Positions 1 to 40,512 of a stretch of DNA of 64,000 nucleotides are shown piece by piece. The DNA is taken from assembly GCA_013298845.1 (NCBI GenBank), contig JAAFJN010000001.1:248001-312000 (forward strand), in the 5' to 3' direction. Under the pieces are notes generated by a model, which was not told the origin of the DNA, made no database searches, and was given only the letters and a program-made list of their open reading frames with translations. Made by a program: the position numbers and the translations under genes. Source of the stretch: Chitinophagales bacterium. Its GTDB lineage: Bacteria; Bacteroidota; Bacteroidia; Chitinophagales; Saprospiraceae. Position 1 is the first letter of the stretch. Each line of letters begins with the position of its first letter.

Positions 1-410
1 ATTTCAAGTTTGATAGTTTGCTCCAGTAAATGTTTAAGCATATACATCACAACGTGTTTGGTGTCGTATTTACTCAAAATTTTGATGGCCGCAAAGGTGC
101 GGTAACAGTTATATACGCCCCTATCCTGGTCGGTATATCGTGAAGCATTTGTATCTAAGAAGAAGGTGGTGTTTATGATAATATCCAGCACCTTACGGCG
201 CAATCTTTTGTAAGAAGGGTAATCTTCATTTTTTTTAAAAATATCTGCGGCGGCCTCTTTATCAGAAGAATATTTACCAGTAAGGATGCCTTGGTACAAT
301 TGTATTGTTTTTTTCGGTTGACTGTTAATGTCTTTTAGTGTCGTAATCTCTTTGATTTTGTTTTTATTAATCAGTTTGACCAGATCTTTTAGTACAGAAA
401 ACTCCAACAT
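1..410 (-). CDS. Helical-repeat protein of unknown function, 3' truncated by window edge
   Basis: The ATG at 408-410 opens a frame that runs off the left edge, giving about 136 visible residues. I do not recognise a named family, but it is clearly paralogous to the 518-residue protein at 24310-25866. Both have a basic N-terminus, then a Y-x-GI segment, an acidic D(K/E)xA stretch, a Y-(K/R)RL(R/K) block at about residues 71-75 and a hydrophobic segment ending FF(L/V) near residue 84. The C-terminal part of the paralogue has TPR-like helix pairs, so this one probably does too. A TAnnTTTG promoter box reading toward it lies at 675-682. Upstream and divergent is a 42-aa peptide ORF at 933-1061, an arrangement repeated at the second locus. 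The sequence is AT-rich. A real gene is likely; its function is unknown. Confidence 0.75.
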   Translation of the reverse strand, partial: MLEFSVLKDLVKLINKNKIKEITTLKDINSQPKKTIQLYQGILTGKYSSDKEAAADIFKKNEDYPSYKRLRRKVLDIIINTTFFLDTNASRYTDQDRGVYNCYRTFAAIKILSKYDTKHVVMYMLKHLLEQTIKLE

Positions 411-932
411 TTTTTAAGTTTTTTTGAAAAATTAAGGACAAATAAATGAATTTTTGTTTTTTTTAAGCAATTTTAGGCTATTTTTTTGAAAAATTTCTGT
501 TTTAAAAGCGAATTTTTATAAAAAAGCCTAATTTTTACAATTAAAACTGATTGATTTGAAATTGAGCAAATTATCCTTTTTTTAGCGCTTCGCATGCCGG
601 TATATTTGTCCTATCAAAACAGCGATATTGTAAAATATTTGGTTTGGAAATGAGAAGACAAATAAACACCGTTACAAAGGTAGTGAAGTGTTTGTATGTA
701 TAGTATATTATGTGATCCGAATTTCTTTTGTTATAAGTGAATTTATATTTTTTTAGGCCCAAAAAAGTTTTTTAATGATTAAAATTTACTTAGAAAAAGA
801 AGAAAGAAGAGAAAAATATACATAAAAATTTAATGTAACTGGTTGATATGAAATGAGTAATTGTGTCCTTGGTAGGGCTAAAATTACACCCCACCTTTGC
901 ATCATCAAATCATTCATTAAATTTTTATCGCC
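411..932. other. AT-rich divergent intergenic region between helical-repeat gene and 42-aa peptide
   Basis: These 522 bases hold promoters in both directions. The minus-strand box TACCTTTG (675-682) would serve the helical-repeat gene with a 5' leader of about 260 nt. On the plus strand a TTG at 869-871 and CACCTTTG at 892-899, 20 nt apart, precede the peptide ORF. A weak hairpin TTAGGCT (about 473-480) / AGCCTAA (about 527-533) is followed by a T run. The 571-762 frame on the minus strand runs across the promoter and is not credible as a gene. The equivalent region at the second locus (23797-24309) is 513 bases long. Confidence 0.6.
867..899 (+). promoter_or_regulatory. Promoter of the left 42-aa peptide
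   Basis: The -33 element TTG is at 869-871 and the -7 element CACCTTTG (one mismatch to TAnnTTTG) at 892-899, with 20 nt between them. The blocks GTGTCCTTG (863-871) and TTTGCATCATCA (896-907) recur at matching positions in front of the other 42-aa peptide (minus strand, about 23885-23840). Confidence 0.55.
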
Positions 933-1061
933 ATGACAATTGTATTGCTCGTTTTGAATCTTGTTCTTAGTTCATTTACCACTGTTATTACTAATGAATC
1001 TGGGAAGACTCAAATTAAAAATTCCACGGAATTTATCATCATTGAAGAAACTATTATGTAA
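933..1061 (+). CDS. 42-aa hydrophobic small peptide (left copy)
   Basis: This short frame runs ATG at 933 to TAA at 1059-1061. The first 13 or so residues are hydrophobic (MTIVLLVLNLVLSSF) and look like a signal or membrane segment. A polar middle and an acidic tail with three isoleucines (FIIIEE) follow. No known family is recognised. Support comes from a second 42-residue ORF at 23668-23796 with the same plan (hydrophobic start, EIIIDD near the end), the same divergent position relative to a paralogous helical-repeat gene, and a shared promoter sequence. Could be a secreted signal, a membrane peptide or a toxin-like peptide; the sequence does not decide. Without the second locus I would have dismissed it. 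Confidence 0.5.
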   Translation: MTIVLLVLNLVLSSFTTVITNESGKTQIKNSTEFIIIEETIM

Positions 1062-1237
1062 TATATTTTTTTAATCCCCCCCCTCGGTTAACACCCGATC
1101 CGAAAATCTCGGTAAAAGACATATTGCATCCCAACCAAAAGATAAATCTTCATGTATAACAATTTTTGCCGTTCTACATCTTCTCTGTGTTTGTTACATT
1201 TATTCTAAATTTCTAATCGTGTTAAATTCGTTTTACG

Positions 1238-1275
1238 AAAGACGCCTCGCTTACTTGAACAGCGAGGCAGTCTTT
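1238..1275. repeat. Long near-perfect inverted repeat
   Basis: The arms are AAAGACGCCTCGCT (1238-1251) and AGCGAGGCAGTCTTT (1261-1275), with one bulged A and a 9-nt loop. No T run follows on either side, so it is not an obvious intrinsic terminator. It could be an RNA stem at the end of the peptide transcript or a small repeat element. Confidence 0.6.
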
Positions 1276-1320
1276 AGTAAAAGTTGTTGCATCTTCAAAC
1301 AAAAAAACCCTGACAAAACA

Positions 1321-1355
1321 AAAGCATACCCGTTCACTACCGAGGGTATGCTTTT
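1321..1355. terminator. Bidirectional intrinsic terminator downstream of dtd
   Basis: The stem is AAAGCATACCC (1321-1331) / GGGTATGCTTTT (1344-1355). T-rich tails follow in both directions. It lies about 35 nt past the dtd stop on the minus strand. Confidence 0.75.
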
Positions 1356-1387
1356 TTATTTTTTAAAAATATCGGTAATGAACCGAG

Positions 1388-1840
1388 CTACTTCCCCTCT
1401 TTGGTATCCAACCAAATGGTCACCGGGCCGTCGTTGACCAAAGCCACCTGCATATCGGCTCCAAATTGGCCCGTCCCGACGGGTTTGCCTAAGGTGGCCG
1501 TAGTTTTGGCAATCATCATTTCGTACAACGGAATTGCGGTATCGGGCCGGGCGGCTCGAATGAAGGAAGGTCGGTTGCCTTTTTGGGCATCGGCGTACAG
1601 GGTAAATTGGCTCACAATAATAATATCGCCGCCGGTGTCCAGTACGGAAAGGTTCATTTTGCCTTCATCGTCCGAAAAAATGCGCATTCCCGTAATTTTT
1701 TTTACCAACCAATCCACGTCTTTTTCGGTGTCGGCGGTTTCAATACCCAATAATATCAATAACCCACCCCCGATGGAGGCGTGTATTTGGCCTTCGATGG
1801 TGACCGAGGCGCTGGAAACCCGTTGAATTAATGCTCGCAT
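1388..1840 (-). CDS. dtd: D-aminoacyl-tRNA deacylase
   Basis: This cytoplasmic enzyme hydrolyses D-aminoacyl-tRNAs (and Gly-tRNAAla), recycling tRNAs charged with the wrong amino acid. The 150-residue product has the normal family length and starts MRALIQRV; the frame extends 22 codons upstream, but that part is not family-like. The two signature blocks of the active site are intact: SQFTLYAD at residues 77-84 and NDGPVT at 136-141 (the Gly-cisPro motif). Monocistronic, with its own terminator at 1321-1355. It is divergent from the T9SS gene at 1948. Assignment is secure. Confidence 0.95.
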
Positions 1841-1947
1841 GCCGCAAAAATACCGCAAGTTTGGTATATTTTTTGTAGTTAACAGGCAGCGGTAACGATG
1901 ATTCAAAGTATCTTTTTACTTTTGATGCAATTATCCGCCCTGACGCA

Positions 1948-2799
1948 GTGTATATAAAAATATTTTACCCAATATTGGTCGTTTGGGGATGCTGTGCGGC
2001 ACTCAAAGCGCAAACTGGTTGCATTGAATCGGTACAGGTAGATGTTGTACCCGTGCAATGTTACAGTTTTCGAAATGGAAACATCACCATTGCATCGGTA
2101 CAAGGAGGAACTTCACCTTATTATTATTCCATTGACGGTACGACGTTTAGCACAAGACCCGAATTTGAATTTTTGTGGCCGGGTATTTACGAAATTACCA
2201 TCCGGGATTCGGTGGGGTGTACGTTTACCGAACTGGTTGAGGTACAAGAACCACCCGTACTGGAGGTGTCTCTGATCACCACTAAATCATTGGTGGAGTT
2301 GGGGGAATCCTTTCGCCTTGAAGCAACTGTCACGCCGCCCGATGTGCACATCGCTTCGGTGCAATGGCGCCCGCCGGATATGTTTGAAGATGGAATTACC
2401 TTGGCCCAATTTGTAGAAAAAATAAACGAAACCACCACATTTGCGGTAGAAATAATTGACCAAAATGGATGTACCGCTCGTGACCAAGTCACCGTAGAAG
2501 TTAAATTACCCAATATTTACGCTCCCAATATTATTAGTATGGGTAGCAATCAGGATGCTTATTTTACCTTATTTACCGATGAATATGTCAATATTATAAA
2601 ATCTCTAAATATTTATAGCCGGTCGGGAAGTCTTGTTTTTAGCCGTACTAATTTCCCCCCCAATGATCCCCTACTGGGTTGGGGAGGTCGAAACAACAAC
2701 AAAAGAGTTCAGCCGGGGGTTTTTACCTGGGTCGCAGAAGTGGAAAACCTGGATGGTAAAGTACGCCTGATGTACGGTTCCCTCACGGTAGTCCGTTAA
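1948..2799 (+). CDS. SprB-repeat protein with T9SS type B sorting domain
   Basis: An exported 283-residue protein. A signal peptide of about 21 residues (MYIKIFYPILVVWGCCAALKAQ) starts at a GTG. The frame is open upstream to 1879 without a better start. Residues about 25-105 form a SprB-type repeat (GNITI, GGTSPYYYSIDG, GIYEITIRDSVGCT). Residues about 185-283 are the gliding-motility-associated C-terminal domain (LPNIYAPNI... VQPGVFTWVAEV), the type B signal for secretion through T9SS and attachment at the cell surface. Substrate or partner unknown. Only one repeat is present, so it is a minimal member of a family that is usually far longer. A 20-codon frame at 1898 in another phase overlaps the start region and is probably chance. 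Confidence 0.85.
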   Translation: MYIKIFYPILVVWGCCAALKAQTGCIESVQVDVVPVQCYSFRNGNITIASVQGGTSPYYYSIDGTTFSTRPEFEFLWPGIYEITIRDSVGCTFTELVEVQEPPVLEVSLITTKSLVELGESFRLEATVTPPDVHIASVQWRPPDMFEDGITLAQFVEKINETTTFAVEIIDQNGCTARDQVTVEVKLPNIYAPNIISMGSNQDAYFTLFTDEYVNIIKSLNIYSRSGSLVFSRTNFPPNDPLLGWGGRNNNKRVQPGVFTWVAEVENLDGKVRLMYGSLTVVR

Positions 2800-35824: not shown

Positions 35825-38377
35825 ATGTTTTTACGCAAACGAATATTTTCCCGGTTGTACGCCACCCCTTTTTTCGCCCGGCGATGGGCCATTGGGGTTT
35901 TGGTACTGTTGCCGCTACTCGCCGGAGCGCAACCCGACGACGAAAATATTGACGTGAGTTTGTCCAAAATTGACGCGTTGTTGGAGCAGGCCCGCCGCAG
36001 TAATTCGGACGTGGAAAAAGAACGCCTCGCCAACGAATGCATCGGCATGTCGCAGGGGGCTTCGCGCACCGAAAGCGGCATGGTGCAGGCGTATATCATT
36101 TTGGGGGAAGTGTACGCCCGCAACAACAAGATTGAAAAATCGCTCAGTAATTATTTAGAAGCCGAAAACCGCGCCATTACCAACGGAACCACGCAGTTTT
36201 TACCCAATATTTACGGGGGCATCGGGGATTTGTTTTTTTCCCAAAAACTCTACGAAAACGCGGCGGTGTTTTACAAAAGAGTGGTCCAAAAAAATCCCAA
36301 AGATTACGCCAGTATGGAAAAATTGGCCGATGCTTACCTGTACAGCGTAAAACGAGTGAATGAAAAAAACGCCCTGTTCAGCATGACCACCGGCGTTGAT
36401 AATGGTTTGGGCGACAGCGAATACGTTGAACCTTCGGGTACACCGGTGAAAGACGTGAACAAATTGCGGTTCGACAGCGCCGAATTTTTGTACAAAATCC
36501 TGATGGTCAAATACAAAGAGGACGGCAACAACGCGCATTTGATCCAAATTTATCAAAAAATGGCCAATGCCTACGAACAACAGGACAACGTGGGCAAACA
36601 GTTGTTGTACTATATTCGCATCGAGGATATTGTATCCAAATTTGGCAAACCTTACGAACGCGGACGTTTGTACAATAACCTCGGGAAAGTGTACGCTGCG
36701 CAGGGAAAATACGAAGATGCCCTCGAAAATTTCAAAAAAACCGAAGTCCAGTGCCAGTTCGCGGCCATGCAACCCAATAAACCCTGCGAAAACGAAGAAC
36801 TGCTGTACATCAACATGGGCGTGGTGTTGCACAATATGCGGCGCACCAAAGAGGGGCTTTCGTACCTCGCCCGCGCCGAAGCCATCCTGAAAGAGCGCAA
36901 GGATATTGTGTCGTTGGCCAGCCTCGAACACCTGATCGCCACGGTGTATTTTAGCGTTGATGACCGCTACAACGCCCTTTCGCACACCGAACAAGCCATT
37001 GATTACGCCAAGGCCGCCAACGAAATTGACGTTTTGAGCCGCGCTTACCGCACCGCCTCGCAGGTCTATCAGGATTTGTACGATTTTGAAAAAGCCTTTG
37101 AATACTACAACAATTACCTCGATTTATCGGATAAAATTCGCATTGATGACCAGCGCAAACAGGTGATGCTTTCGGAAAGAAGCAGCCAATTGCGCGCCGC
37201 CGAAAGTGAAATTAAATACCTGATTGTGCAGCGCGAAATTCGGGAGCGGGCACTCGAAGCCACGCGTTTGCGCCAGCAGCAGTTGGAAAAAGACAACGAA
37301 ATTTTGGCCGCCGATGCCCGCCAAAAGGAACTGGAAGTGCAAATTTTGCAAAAAGACAAAGAGGCCAACGAGGCGACCGTGCGCGAAAAAATTGCCTTAG
37401 CCATGCAGGCCGATGAAAAATTGCGCACCGCCGCCCGCGAATTGGAATTGCAAAAACGCACCGCCGAACTCGAACGCTCGGAGCAACAAACGGCCATTGC
37501 GGAAGCCGAAAAATTGTCCAGCGAACAAAAAGTAACCCTCCTCAACCGCGAAAAAGAACTGGCCGATTTACAGTTAACGGCCAATCAGGAGTTTCAGCGG
37601 AATACCTATATTTTGGGTGGTTTGGGTGCTCTCATGCTGCTTTTTATGGCCGGTGCCTGGTGGTTTGCCCGCCGCGCCAGCAAGCGTTTACAAATGCAAA
37701 ACCAAAAAATTGAAGCGCAAAAAAACCAAATTGACGCGGAAAGGGGAAAAAGCGACCGTTTGTTGCGCAATATTCTGCCCGATGAAATTGCCGAAGAACT
37801 CAAAACCCGGGGCCACGCGGCACCCAAATTATACGATTCGGCGACGGTGCTGTTCACCGATTTTGTCAATTTCACCAAGTTATCGGCGAGCCTTCAACCG
37901 GAACGTATTATTAGTGAACTGGACGAATGTTTTTTGGCTTTTGACGAAATCATTGAAAAACACGGTTTGGAAAAAATCAAAACCATCGGGGATGCCTTTA
38001 TGTGCGCCGGTGGTTTGCCCGTTCCCAACCACACCCACGCCACCGACGCGGTGCGGGCGGCATTGGAAATCAACGAGTGGCTCAGAACCCGTAATGCCGA
38101 AAAACCAGACGCCATTTTCCGCGAAATGCGCATCGGTATTCACACCGGACAGGTGGTAGCGGGGGTAATTGGTAAAAATAAATTTGCGTACGATATTTGG
38201 GGCGATGCCGTTAATCTCGCGTCCCGGCTCGAAGAACAGGGCGAAAATGGCCGCGTCAATATCTCCCAAACCACCTACGAAGCCGTAAAAGACCAGTTTA
38301 AATGCTCTTGGCGCGGACAAAGAGAAGTGCACAACAAAGGATTGGTGGATATGTACTTCGTGGATGGGGAATTGTAA
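35825..38377 (+). CDS. TPR-coiled coil-class III adenylate cyclase
   Basis: An 850-residue signalling protein. An N-terminal signal or membrane segment (residues about 18-38) precedes about ten TPR-like helix pairs (about 45-450), a long charged coiled coil (about 455-585), a transmembrane helix (about 592-612, YILGGLGALMLLFMAGAWWF), a second short coiled coil and the cyclase domain (about 675-850). Metal-binding aspartates are Asp679 (FTDFVNFT) and Asp723 (IGDAFM). The purine-specifying pair is Lys719 (KIKTIG) and Asp790 (YDIWG), the pattern of adenylate rather than guanylate cyclases, and the later N and R of VNLASR are present. The sensor part would lie outside the cytoplasm, with cAMP made inside. 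Single gene. Confidence 0.9.
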   Translation: MFLRKRIFSRLYATPFFARRWAIGVLVLLPLLAGAQPDDENIDVSLSKIDALLEQARRSNSDVEKERLANECIGMSQGASRTESGMVQAYIILGEVYARNNKIEKSLSNYLEAENRAITNGTTQFLPNIYGGIGDLFFSQKLYENAAVFYKRVVQKNPKDYASMEKLADAYLYSVKRVNEKNALFSMTTGVDNGLGDSEYVEPSGTPVKDVNKLRFDSAEFLYKILMVKYKEDGNNAHLIQIYQKMANAYEQQDNVGKQLLYYIRIEDIVSKFGKPYERGRLYNNLGKVYAAQGKYEDALENFKKTEVQCQFAAMQPNKPCENEELLYINMGVVLHNMRRTKEGLSYLARAEAILKERKDIVSLASLEHLIATVYFSVDDRYNALSHTEQAIDYAKAANEIDVLSRAYRTASQVYQDLYDFEKAFEYYNNYLDLSDKIRIDDQRKQVMLSERSSQLRAAESEIKYLIVQREIRERALEATRLRQQQLEKDNEILAADARQKELEVQILQKDKEANEATVREKIALAMQADEKLRTAARELELQKRTAELERSEQQTAIAEAEKLSSEQKVTLLNREKELADLQLTANQEFQRNTYILGGLGALMLLFMAGAWWFARRASKRLQMQNQKIEAQKNQIDAERGKSDRLLRNILPDEIAEELKTRGHAAPKLYDSATVLFTDFVNFTKLSASLQPERIISELDECFLAFDEIIEKHGLEKIKTIGDAFMCAGGLPVPNHTHATDAVRAALEINEWLRTRNAEKPDAIFREMRIGIHTGQVVAGVIGKNKFAYDIWGDAVNLASRLEEQGENGRVNISQTTYEAVKDQFKCSWRGQREVHNKGLVDMYFVDGEL

Positions 38378-38429: not shown

Positions 38430-38459
38430 GTTGTAAAAACGAAATTAGCACGATATTTG
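38430..38459 (+). promoter_or_regulatory. Putative promoter of the cys leader-cysE-cysK unit
   Basis: TTG (38431-38433) and GATATTTG (38452-38459, one mismatch to TAnnTTTG) are 18 nt apart. The inferred start near 38465 leaves about 70 nt before the leader ORF. Confidence 0.45.
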
Positions 38460-38535
38460 TCCCCAAGTAAAAATCAAGGCAAAACAAAAGGTCTAATGTC
38501 TTACGTCTTTTATCCAAGGTCTAAAGTCTAAAAAA

Positions 38536-38625
38536 ATGAACCGCTTATTCACGCCATGTTGTTGTTGTTGCTGTTGTCTTCCCCGTGGGCAAAGAGCGAC
38601 GCATGGTATGGAAAAACGCGATTGA
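38536..38625 (+). CDS. Cysteine-rich leader peptide of the cysE-cysK operon
   Basis: A 29-codon ORF beginning MNRLFTPCCCCCCCLPRG, with seven consecutive cysteine codons (38557-38577), then a basic tail ending at TGA 38623-38625. Such a run next to a cysteine biosynthesis operon is the hallmark of ribosome-mediated transcription attenuation. A perfect intrinsic terminator (38666-38706) separates it from cysE. Just past the Cys codons the RNA GGGCAAAGAGC (38587-38597) can pair with the 5' arm of that terminator (GCTCTTTCCC, 38671-38680), forming an antiterminator. A competing hairpin TCTTCC / GG..AAAGA (38577-38595) would be blocked by a ribosome stalled on cysteine codons. Low Cys-tRNA would therefore allow read-through. 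Confidence 0.85.
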   Translation: MNRLFTPCCCCCCCLPRGQRATHGMEKRD

Positions 38626-38680
38626 TTTCATTTTATCCCAAGTCAGTCCATTAATTTTAACATACAAACGGCTCTTTCCC
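38577..38680 (+). promoter_or_regulatory. Attenuator: mutually exclusive leader RNA pairings
   Basis: Segment 1 (38577-38582, TCTTCC) can pair with segment 2 (38587-38597). Segment 2 can instead pair with segment 3 (38671-38680), about 10 bp with one bulge. Segment 3 otherwise pairs with segment 4 (38692-38704) as the terminator. The geometry is that of the trp/his type attenuators. Confidence 0.75.
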
Positions 38681-38712
38681 GGTTCGACCGCGAAAGAGCC
38701 GTTTTTCATTTG
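38666..38712 (+). terminator. Attenuator terminator before cysE
   Basis: Stem AAACGGCTCTTTC (38666-38678) / GAAAGAGCCGTTT (38692-38704), 13 perfect pairs plus inner CGG/CCG, then TTTTTCATTTG. It ends only 6 nt before the cysE ATG, so it must be read through for cysE expression. Confidence 0.9.
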
Positions 38713-38718
38713 TGCCGC

Positions 38719-39540
38719 ATGAACGAATTTTTATTACATCTTGACCACGAGCAGGCGCGTTGCGCGGGCAAAACCCCGTCGGTGACGCTGACCAATGAAT
38801 TTGCGGAAGGTTTGTACGAGTGGTTGTTTCCCGTGTCGGGTCCCGTTGTAGCCGGTCAGGCTGCCGCCCGGTACGCGGCATTGCAGCGGCAATTGGGGCA
38901 ATTATTGGGGCCTTTAGCAGCCAGTTTGCCCGCCCGCCCGGAAGATATTTCGGCGCAATTTTTTGCCGCTATTCCCGGCGTGTACGATTTGTTGTGCGAA
39001 GATGCGCGGGCATTTTACCAATATGACCCCGCCGCCACGGATATCACCGAAGTAATGGCCGCGTATCCGGGGTTTAAGGCCATTACGATTTACCGCCTGT
39101 CGCACGAATTACACGAACTCAAAATACCGCTGCTGCCCCGGCTTTTGTCGGAGTATGCCCACAGCAAAACCGGGATTGATATTCACCCGGGAGCATCCAT
39201 CGGGCGCTCGTTTTTTATTGACCACGGGACGGGAGTCGTCATCGGGGCCACCACCACTATTGGCAACAATGTGCGCATTTACCAAGGCGTAACCCTCGGT
39301 GCTTTGCAGGTAGAAAAGTCTTTGGCCAACGTTAAACGACACCCCACCATCGAAGATAACTGCGTTATTTACGCCAATAGCACCATTTTGGGGGGTAAAA
39401 CGACCGTTGGGCACAATTCCGTCATTGGGGGGAATACGTGGCTGACCGAAAGCGTACCGCCGTTTTCCATCGTTTTACACCAGGCTCAGGTAAAAGTGCG
39501 CTCCCGGGGTGCCGATGAGCCGATTCTTTTTGTCATCTAA
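38719..39540 (+). CDS. cysE: Serine O-acetyltransferase
   Basis: Makes O-acetylserine from serine and acetyl-CoA, the first committed step of cysteine synthesis. From ATG 38719 the product is 273 residues. A helical N-terminal half is followed by the left-handed hexapeptide-repeat domain at about 135-250: HPGASIGRSFFIDHGTGVVIG, then GNNVRIYQGVTLGAL, and KRHPTIEDNCVIYANSTILGG. The catalytic histidines lie in YAHSKTGIDIH and FIDHGTG. cysK follows 54 nt later. Expression appears to be controlled by the cysteine leader and terminator immediately upstream. Confidence 0.93.
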   Translation: MNEFLLHLDHEQARCAGKTPSVTLTNEFAEGLYEWLFPVSGPVVAGQAAARYAALQRQLGQLLGPLAASLPARPEDISAQFFAAIPGVYDLLCEDARAFYQYDPAATDITEVMAAYPGFKAITIYRLSHELHELKIPLLPRLLSEYAHSKTGIDIHPGASIGRSFFIDHGTGVVIGATTTIGNNVRIYQGVTLGALQVEKSLANVKRHPTIEDNCVIYANSTILGGKTTVGHNSVIGGNTWLTESVPPFSIVLHQAQVKVRSRGADEPILFVI

Positions 39541-39594: not shown

Positions 39595-40512
39595 ATGAAA
39601 GCGAACAATATCTTAGCAACCATTGGCAACACGCCGCACGTACGCATCAACCGCCTTTTTGGACCAGACCAGGAAGTGTGGATTAAATTGGAACGGGCCA
39701 ACCCCGGCGGTAGTATCAAAGACCGCATTGCCCTTTCGATGATCGAAGCCGCCGAAAAAAGCGGCGAACTCCAACCCGGCTCCATCATTATCGAACCTAC
39801 CAGCGGTAACACCGGTATCGGGTTGGCAATGGTAGCGGCGGTAAAAGGTTATTCGCTCATTTTGGTCATGCCCGAAAGTATGTCCATCGAACGCCGCCGC
39901 CTCATGGCCGCTTACGGGGCCAAATTTGACCTTACGCCCCGCGAAAAAGGTATGAAAGGGGCGATAGAACGCGCTGGTGAACTGCTGCGCGAAACGCCCA
40001 ATTCCTGGATGCCGCAACAGTTCGAAAACGCCGCCAACATTGCGGTGCACGTAGCCACTACCGTTCCCGAAATTCTCGCCGATTTCCCCGACGGCCTCGA
40101 TTACCTGATTACGGGCGTGGGCACGGGTGGACACATTACGGCCGTGGGCGAAGAACTAAAAAAACATTTTCCCAACCTCAAGGTATTTGCCGTGGAACCG
40201 GTGCTGAGTCCGGTGATTTCCGGCGGAACCCCGGGGCCGCACCCCATTCAAGGGATTGGCGCGGGTTTTATTCCCAAAAATCTGCACACCGACGTATTGG
40301 ACGGGGTTATTCAGGTATCTAAAGACGATGCCTTTGCTTTTGCCAAACGCGCGGCCCTGGAAGAAGGTATTTTTGGCGGCATTTCGTCGGGTGCGACCTT
40401 GGCCGCAATTGCGCAAAAACTGCCCGATATGGCACCCGGAGCGCGGGTATTGGGCTTTAACTACGATACCGGCGAGCGTTATTTGTCCATTGAGGGGTTG
40501 TTTGACCTGTAG
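39595..40512 (+). CDS. cysK: Cysteine synthase (O-acetylserine sulfhydrylase)
   Basis: A PLP enzyme of 305 residues joining O-acetylserine and sulfide to give cysteine. The PLP lysine is Lys42 in [11 protein letters not shown]. The substrate loop is [12 protein letters not shown] (about 63-74) and the phosphate-binding loop is [13 protein letters not shown] near 178. Length and motifs match CysK more than cystathionine beta-synthase; CysM-type use of thiosulfate cannot be excluded. Second gene of the attenuated cysE-cysK operon and followed by a terminator. Confidence 0.93.

Follow-up and report, generated by a model that had tools for sequence, protein, structure and literature searches.

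A predicted poly-cysteine leader attenuator ahead of cysE-cysK in a Saprospiraceae genome, with related leaders scattered over Bacteroidota

Introduction

The attenuators of the trp, his and leu operons of enterobacteria are ribosome-mediated. For cysteine, ribosome-mediated attenuation has been proposed in Rhodobacterales, where the uORFC-8-2 motif ahead of cysS combines a Cys-codon uORF, two stems and an intrinsic terminator (PMC8632094). Poly-Cys leaders without a terminator precede actinobacterial cys/cbs operons (PMC1262725), and leaderless polycysteine ORFs are described in mycobacteria, with translation attenuation cited for M. smegmatis (Canestrari 2020, cited in PMC13236596). Within Bacteroidota, 'strong clues' of leader-peptide attenuation were reported for Flavobacterium psychrophilum (PMC9723704) and short ORFs 'reminiscent of leader peptides' for Bacteroides thetaiotaomicron (PMC7366714). 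Both cases share the phylum and the general idea with the leaders described here, but no cysteine operon is named in the relevant passages. No cysteine attenuator in Bacteroidota was found in the literature searched; a cited comparative survey of 2010 (Lopatovskaya et al., Mol. Biol. 44:128), which lay outside that search, may overlap.

Here we describe a leader ahead of cysE-cysK in a 64,000-nucleotide stretch of the genome of a Chitinophagales bacterium (assembly GCA_013298845.1, contig JAAFJN010000001.1), referred to below as the window. We consider it very likely (probability about 0.9) that the locus is a ribosome-mediated transcription attenuator sensing Cys-tRNA(Cys), and that such attenuators form a regulon in this Saprospiraceae genus and are scattered over Bacteroidota. 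Regulation by cysteine is inferred from sequence; there are no expression, ribosome-profiling or cysteine-response data. Akin to the trp, his and leu attenuators, the device comprises a leader ORF with regulatory codons, a 5' hairpin, an antiterminator, an intrinsic terminator and an operon of the same pathway. Unlike them it concerns cysteine and Bacteroidota, its antiterminator segment begins 0-19 nt past the run, inside or overlapping the ORF, a Shine-Dalgarno-like sequence is absent from the stretch 4-20 nt ahead of the ATG in 51 of 51 leaders examined, and several unlinked operons carry the same device. The uORFC-8-2 motif has two tandem Cys codons against 4-8 here, belongs to Alphaproteobacteria and serves only cysS, which in our set is one target among many (L132). 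Cys runs before cysteine genes, and the leaderless start predicted for our cysH group, are shared with the actinobacterial and mycobacterial leaders; unlike the terminator-less actinobacterial type, a terminator is present in 31 of 31 leaders that were not selected for one. The kind of device is already known. What appears to be new, at the level of sequence and with regulation by cysteine inferred, is that attenuators with poly-Cys leaders and terminators make up a regulon in Bacteroidota; the predicted leaderless start of the cysH-type leaders would be an additional novelty. A first-pass annotation of the window had been aware of no such attenuator in Bacteroidota and had mentioned Cys-run leaders in actinobacteria. 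The former claim held in the literature searched, with the Rhodobacterales cysS motif (PMC8632094) and the flavobacterial clues (PMC9723704) as precedents of the kind, and the latter held with the addition that those leaders lack a terminator (PMC1262725).

Results and discussion

The cysE-cysK leader of the window

The features of the locus, in window coordinates, are as follows.

38431-38459, + strand: promoter-like element, TTG (38431-38433), 18 nt, then GATATTTG (38452-38459)
38536-38625, + strand: leader peptide ORF, 29 codons, MNRLFTPCCCCCCCLPRGQRATHGMEKRD followed by the stop
38548-38612, + strand: predicted 5' sequestering hairpin, -23.6 kcal/mol
38557-38577, + strand: seven consecutive Cys codons (TGT/TGC) seen in the sequence, the presumed sensing codons
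38586-38597, + strand: putative antiterminator segment TGGGCAAAGAGC with a bulged C at 38590, pairing with 38671-38681
38666-38704, + strand: predicted intrinsic terminator, a hairpin of 13+4 pairs (-24.9 kcal/mol); the U tract is short and ends at 38706
38719-39540, + strand: cysE, serine O-acetyltransferase, by profile matches; first gene of the putatively regulated operon
39595-40512, + strand: cysK, cysteine synthase A, 54 nt past cysE

The cysE product scored 166.3 bits against TIGR01172, below the cut-off of that model (210.65), and 155.5 bits against NF041874 (EpsC), above its cut-off of 150; a 276-aa cysE ORF in the ORF list is a longer version starting from an upstream TTG. The cysK product reached 396 bits against TIGR01139 (cut-off 350.95). 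Judging from their 54-nt spacing, both genes are presumably co-transcribed. The gene upstream of the leader encodes a TPR protein with an adenylate/guanylate cyclase domain and ends at 38377. The antiterminator segment lies inside the leader ORF, and in the 5' hairpin the Cys run and its 5' flank are paired with this segment and its 3' flank. The terminator hairpin comprises 39 nt and 17 pairs. Its U tract is short, five T (38702-38706) followed by CATTTG, and the cysE ATG at 38719 is located 14 nt past the hairpin. Directly 5' of the leader ORF a near-repeat was observed, AAGGTCTAATGTCTTA / AAGGTCTAAAGTCTAA (38488-38531); no further copy of it occurs in the window at up to two mismatches.

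The leader RNA (38520-38712) is more stably folded than its shuffles (z = -4.96). Pairing of GGGCAAAGAGC (38587-38597) with the terminator arm (38671-38681) was calculated at -16.2 kcal/mol, with one bulged C (38590). By itself this pairing is not clearly above chance (p = 0.26 against dinucleotide shuffles), and 22 of 500 mononucleotide shuffles equalled it. The strength of the case lies in the comparison among relatives and not in the window pairing alone. Folding was repeated with the positions of a ribosome masked; these calculations describe equilibrium and not kinetics, and the transcript was taken up to the terminator loop. The expected number of antiterminator pairs was 0.27 in the free RNA; a ribosome placed at the first Cys codon raised it to 12.4, and one at the stop codon lowered it to 0.00. 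The sequestration by the 5' region was equalled by 15% of full and 3% of partial shuffles. An Rfam scan of the window leader gave no family at threshold; the only two matches up to E = 10 were on the opposite strand and far below threshold. The hairpin at 38666-38704 was missed by the built-in terminator scan, presumably since that scan accepts loops of up to 8 and the outer stem encloses a larger one. A sigma-70 promoter scan was uninformative.

The first-pass annotation had named a 29-codon ORF with seven Cys codons, a terminator at 38666-38706, the segment GGGCAAAGAGC at 38587-38597 able to pair with the 5' arm of the terminator, and an alternative hairpin that a ribosome stalled on the Cys codons would block. 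The ORF with its run (38557-38577) was confirmed, as were the segment and its position and the alternative hairpin, which spans 38548-38612 with the Cys codons in its stem. The terminator was also confirmed, although its hairpin ends at 38704 and not at 38706. Folding with the leader masked had been suggested as a check, and the window behaved as predicted.

Further poly-Cys leaders in the same genome

In the 6.4-Mb genome, in-frame runs of at least five Cys codons form 19 clusters (27 overlapping matches), nearly all of which fall under long frames. Only two of the 19 combine a short ORF starting with ATG and a following hairpin of -20 kcal/mol or better: the window leader, which no long frame crosses, and a leader before cysH. 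The long frame that runs over the latter on its own strand is the cysH frame continued 5' of the cysH ATG. This second leader (L058), MIFLTANMMCCCCCPPSGYRGGRFTFIS, lies ahead of cysH-cysD-cysN-cobA-cysJ-(unnamed ORF)-cysI-cysG-like, a cluster that we infer to be co-transcribed. A third leader (L173), MIKGMLTYSFQMTMCCCCTARFTEAATSTFGKR, with four Cys codons, was found by the covariance model R1 ahead of a TonB-dependent receptor gene.

TonB-dependent receptors were observed behind poly-Cys leaders at L173 in the genome of the window (1-2001; Pfam) and at L282/L255 (L255 by likeness). For these receptors a role in outer-membrane uptake of cysteine or of a sulfur source is predicted.

Conservation within the genus

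An ORF with a Cys run was present at the same place ahead of cysE in 15 of the 18 same-genus loci with at least 500 nt upstream (20 loci in all); the three without leader are L004, L005 and L019. None of four cysE loci outside the genus had a leader. For cysH, all 16 same-genus loci with 700 nt upstream (17 in all) carried a Cys-run leader, and the twelve other loci of the cysH search, all from outside the genus (L076-L087), carried none. The runs of the same-genus cysE and cysH leaders consist of 4-7 in-frame Cys codons. At L068 and L069 a membrane-protein gene is situated between leader and cysH.

Covariance models R1 and R2 were searched against 41 genomes of the genus. R1 matched in 30 of them at 59 places (E <= 1e-5), including five that duplicate another place on the reverse strand, and R2 matched in 31 at 61 places (E <= 1e-6). 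Poly-Cys loci ranked first, with E-values down to 3e-23; the top matches include training members, which the models match by construction. Upon inspection, a Cys-run ORF was found in 19 of 21 R1 loci (not in L251 and L258) and in 29 of 30 R2 loci (not in L285), and some matches of the models are thus not attenuators. Among the targets are cysE, cysK, a cysM-like synthase, cysH, a cysH-like paralogue and O-acetylhomoserine sulfhydrylase. The others are peroxiredoxin, a TonB-dependent receptor, and what we take to be a YeeE-like membrane protein and a DUF4395-like protein; target names in the genus were given partly by likeness to proteins identified elsewhere. Two leaders in series occur at L264, L270, L275, L276 and L281, while peroxiredoxin and the adjoining cysM-like gene can each own a leader (L286, L287, L288). 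One genome (G008) gave up to five model matches, three of which were inspected. Several cysteine and sulfur operons of the genus are thus preceded by this device, whose stem sequences are of at least two kinds and whose function is inferred.

Predicted competing structures in 54 leaders

The compilation of 54 leaders comprises 14 from cysE, 17 from cysH and 23 found by pattern scan. Presence of a terminator played no part in choosing the 31 from cysE and cysH, and was part of the reason for keeping the 23 pattern leaders. L012, a near copy of L011, was left out of the 54, H_L069 out of the own-versus-other test described below, L013 out of alignment A1, and L060 (hairpin boundary misplaced), L064, L067 and L069 out of alignment A2; L088, a fragment, was likewise left aside. 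Kinship among the sequences makes all p-values optimistic.

In all 31 unselected leaders a terminator lies 69-94 nt past the Cys run, and in the pattern set it lies 57-79 nt past the run in 23 of 23. The stop codon follows the run by 18-60 nt in 54 of 54 leaders, and the antiterminator segments begin 0-19 nt past it. In the alignments, few elements are as well conserved as the Cys run. Two families of stems were recognized, GGAAAGG/CCTTTCC (cysE, cysK, cysM) and CCGAAGCGGC/GCCCTTCGG (cysH). Terminator covariation, computed over 36 leaders, was 0.349 against 0.185 in shuffles, none of 500 shuffles being as high, and 11 of 16 terminator pairs show changes on both sides; the structure had been derived from those same sequences.

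Compared with dinucleotide shuffles, antiterminator pairing reached p < 0.05 in 2 of 14 cysE, 14 of 17 cysH and 18 of 23 pattern leaders (Fisher p = 3e-4, 4e-14 and 8e-21, respectively). For the pattern set, terminator presence and the shuffle test are biased, since the scan fixes part of both stems and matches were kept for having a terminator; the own-versus-other test is not. In this test, which asks how well antiterminators pair with their own terminator as against those of other leaders, 261 of 5000 permutations were at least as good for cysE, two for cysH (16 leaders) and none for the pattern set. The pooled test (53 leaders, 0 of 5000) mixes stem families and adds little.

Over the 54 leaders, mask folding gave on average 5.6 antiterminator pairs in the free RNA, 10.0 when the first Cys codon was occupied by a ribosome and 5.3 when the stop codon was. 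The mask on the first Cys codon increased pairing by more than 0.5 pair in 33 leaders and lowered it in one. Any mask frees partners, and therefore native 5' regions were compared with shuffled ones. Native leaders retained 5.6 antiterminator pairs against 9.1 (54 leaders; Wilcoxon 1.3e-5), with p = 0.05 for the cysE set alone. Since native 5' regions sequester more than shuffled ones, the 5' region seems built to compete. However, in 27 of the 54 leaders the free RNA keeps over half of the antiterminator pairing, so that no sequestration is predicted there, and in 19 the pairing is halved neither in free RNA nor with the ribosome at the stop codon; only a passing ribosome explains those. A ribosome in transit over the antiterminator segment abolishes pairing in 54 of 54 leaders, which is a direct consequence of the mask.

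The leaders were judged by four features. A run of Cys codons matching the amino acid of the operon is shown. An intrinsic terminator between leader ORF and first gene is met by prediction only. An antiterminator exclusive of the terminator is predicted for the sets, strongly for cysH and weakly for cysE, and for the window alone with p = 0.26. A sequestering 5' hairpin is predicted for the window and for the sets, with the exception of the 27 leaders mentioned above.

Promoter and translation start

The -7 box of Bacteroidota, TAnnTTTG, occupies positions -12 to -5 relative to the start site (PMC6847099, PMC9723704). Of 51 leaders, 28 have an exact TAnnTTTG in the 75 nt preceding the leader ATG, compared with a mean of 2.25 and a maximum of 9 in mononucleotide shuffles and with 1 of 51 in a comparison region, the 75 nt ahead of the terminator. 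H_L068, H_L069 and P_L122 were left out of this count, having too little upstream sequence. Upstream of the window leader the box is only approximated, by GATATTTG (38452-38459), which deviates from TAnnTTTG at one position. Between terminator and cysE ATG, TTCATTTG (38705-38712) is also one mismatch from the box, and it is possible, and not excluded, that a leaderless cysE transcript starts there and bypasses the attenuator.

In 9 of 15 cysH leaders the box begins exactly 12 nt ahead of the ATG used, and in a tenth (L073) it lies 12 nt ahead of an alternative upstream ATG. A box 12 nt ahead of the ATG places the start on the A of the ATG, and translation of the cysH-type leader ORF is therefore predicted to begin on a leaderless mRNA. 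Such mRNAs are uncommon in Bacteroidota (5.5%; PMC9723704), and 5' UTRs under 10 nt make up about 3.7% (PMC7366714). No Shine-Dalgarno-like sequence was detected 4-20 nt upstream of the leader ATG in any of the 51 leaders examined.

Proposed mechanism and alternatives

Sequence and comparison show a short Cys-run ORF, an antiterminator segment starting 0-19 nt past the run, a terminator before the first gene and, for the window, a 5' hairpin in competition with these. With ample Cys-tRNA(Cys), the ribosome would pass the Cys codons and cover the antiterminator segment in transit; the 5' hairpin would then re-form, the terminator would form and cysE-cysK would be off. With scarce Cys-tRNA(Cys), the ribosome would stall on the run and open the 5' hairpin, and the freed GGGCAAAGAGC would capture the nascent 5' arm of the terminator, letting polymerase read into cysE-cysK. 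This is the reading the first-pass annotation had given. It is supported at the level of sequence, whereas amino-acid-dependent stalling and read-through remain inferred. Two findings had been named that would refute it. The first, that relatives would fail to conserve the Cys run or the competing stems, did not come true, both being conserved. The second, transcription starting downstream of the terminator, is not excluded: TTCATTTG is no worse than the proposed upstream box, and there are no transcript data. The annotation had described the attenuator ahead of cysE-cysK; this is now widened by two more poly-Cys leaders in the genome (cysH operon, TonB-dependent receptor) and a regulon in the genus. 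The weak points of the window locus are its short U tract, a promoter that is only a near match, an equally near match after the terminator and an antiterminator pairing within chance.

Four alternatives were considered. The poly-Cys ORF could encode a functional small thiol- or metal-binding peptide, the hairpin being only a partial terminator before cysE. A run of 4-8 Cys could bind metals, and some leaders stand ahead of peroxiredoxin or transporter genes. However, beyond the Cys run the peptides differ widely, the recurring residues RKG or EAA/RSG coincide with terminator-pairing nucleotides (GGAAAGG, CCGAAGCGGC), antiterminators match their own terminator better than those of others, and cysS is among the targets. 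We regard this explanation as very unlikely.

Hardly better placed is translational attenuation or Rho-dependent control without termination at the hairpin, as proposed for the actinobacterial poly-Cys leaders. In its favor are the absence of terminators from those leaders (PMC1262725), five Bacteroidota cysK loci with adjacent Cys codons and no terminator found (L198, L200, L203, L208, L218), and the short U tract of the window. Against it stand a strong hairpin with a T-rich tail at a similar distance in 31 of 31 unselected leaders, the mere 14 nt between window hairpin and cysE ATG, and the lack, in members of the phylum, of Shine-Dalgarno sequences that could be sequestered (PMC6847099).

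A riboswitch or T-box binding a ligand or uncharged tRNA directly, with an incidental Cys ORF, is all but ruled out. Cysteine T-boxes occur in Firmicutes, but the leader matches no known aptamer or T-box model, no Rfam family being reached at threshold, and the alignments show the Cys run as one of their most strongly conserved parts. Chance, with a terminator belonging to the upstream gene and the Cys run a mere TGT/TGC repeat, can draw on the 19 clusters of at least five in-frame Cys codons in the genome, nearly all under long frames, but is practically excluded by the 288 nt separating the upstream gene end (38377) from the hairpin, by conservation, by the two stem families and by the preference for the own terminator.

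Distribution over Bacteroidota

Beyond the genus, predicted poly-Cys attenuators recur in a number of lineages. The pattern scan of an 84,980-genome collection gave 55 matches in 54 stretches, 32 of them attenuator-like, with a short ORF and a terminator. The other 23 matches, eight of which are labelled Bacteroidota, lie within long frames or lack a usable terminator and were dropped. Among the 32, 31 are labelled Bacteroidota or one of its groups, including Kapaibacterium (NCBI: Bacteroidota), and the remaining one is a record of Candidatus Zixiibacteriota (L101); labels of metagenome records may be wrong. Records sharing leader peptides with genus loci are labelled mainly Saprospiraceae. 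Nine of the 32 share peptides with the cysE set, leaving 23, and five of those (L108, L112, L113, L122, L133) are same-genus loci seen again. Targets of the scan are cysE, cysK, peroxiredoxin, cysS (TIGR00435; L132), a RimK-like ATP-grasp protein, a beta-carbonic-anhydrase homologue and an operon encoding PALP, Prok-JAB, ThiS and ThiF+rhodanese proteins, which we take to be cysM-mec-cysO-moeZ. L141 carries two complete units in tandem. The targets are mostly cysteine or sulfur genes, cysS included.

In a scan of the phylum, leaders with at least four Cys codons were also found in five families besides that of the window (f20, f26, f37, f48, f54), ahead of cysK, a cysM-like gene, peroxiredoxin, O-acetylhomoserine sulfhydrylase and an ABC ATPase. 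The NCBIfam models that fit this ATPase best, SaoA and the taurine transporter, both remained under cut-off. Among 30 R1 loci of the phylum (L143-L172), eight have at least four consecutive Cys codons (L143, which is the window, L144, L145, L152, L156, L157, L161 and L163). Shorter runs were seen at L155 (three), L167 (C-T-C-C) and L164 (three at the ORF end). In 20 further stretches such a run of at least four occurred in two, L173 and L176, the latter a repeat of L144. The cysK search of the phylum matched in 78 of 198 genomes. Of the 30 best-scoring loci, which were examined, eight have an upstream ORF with adjacent Cys codons, and a terminator in addition is present in only three (L211, L212, L221). 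The other five, those named under Rho-dependent control above, have a Cys-rich short ORF (e.g. MKQHILSGSPFCLCCCCGLPSPII) with no terminator found behind it; translational or Rho-dependent control is possible there. The distribution of the predicted poly-Cys attenuators across Bacteroidota is patchy.

The phylum tally of R1 (237 of 395 genomes) was rejected as a count of attenuators: many matches span only model positions 24-131 or less and resemble ordinary terminators.

A bolder reading, towards which we lean only slightly, is that cysteine and sulfur supply in the genus, and patchily over Bacteroidota, is controlled by a set of poly-Cys attenuators that replace a dedicated transcription factor or act above one. 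Each operon would have its own attenuator, some of them two in series. The cysH-type leader would be leaderless, and the device would mark new sulfur genes (TonB-dependent receptor, YeeE-like transporter, beta-carbonic-anhydrase homologue, RimK-like ligase). A cysteine regulon in a phylum that initiates translation without Shine-Dalgarno sequences would make the coupling of transcription and translation directly testable there, and the poly-Cys leader would serve as a sequence tag pointing to new cysteine- or sulfur-related genes, such as the TonB-dependent receptor.

Several single loci deserve mention as observations. At L152 two poly-Cys leaders stand in series ahead of one gene. Two distant genomes encode a Pro_CA protein (beta-carbonic-anhydrase homologue) downstream of a leader with Cys codons and a terminator, with six Cys codons at L101 and C-T-C-C at L167; the link of this protein to cysteine is unexplained. 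An ATP-grasp/RimK-like protein follows a poly-Cys leader at L130 (no Pfam match) and L139 (Pfam match), and might be a cysteine-peptide or thiol ligase. At L164 a short ORF with CCC at its end, together with a terminator, precedes an EamA-family exporter, where a link to cysteine export is conceivable, albeit weakly supported.
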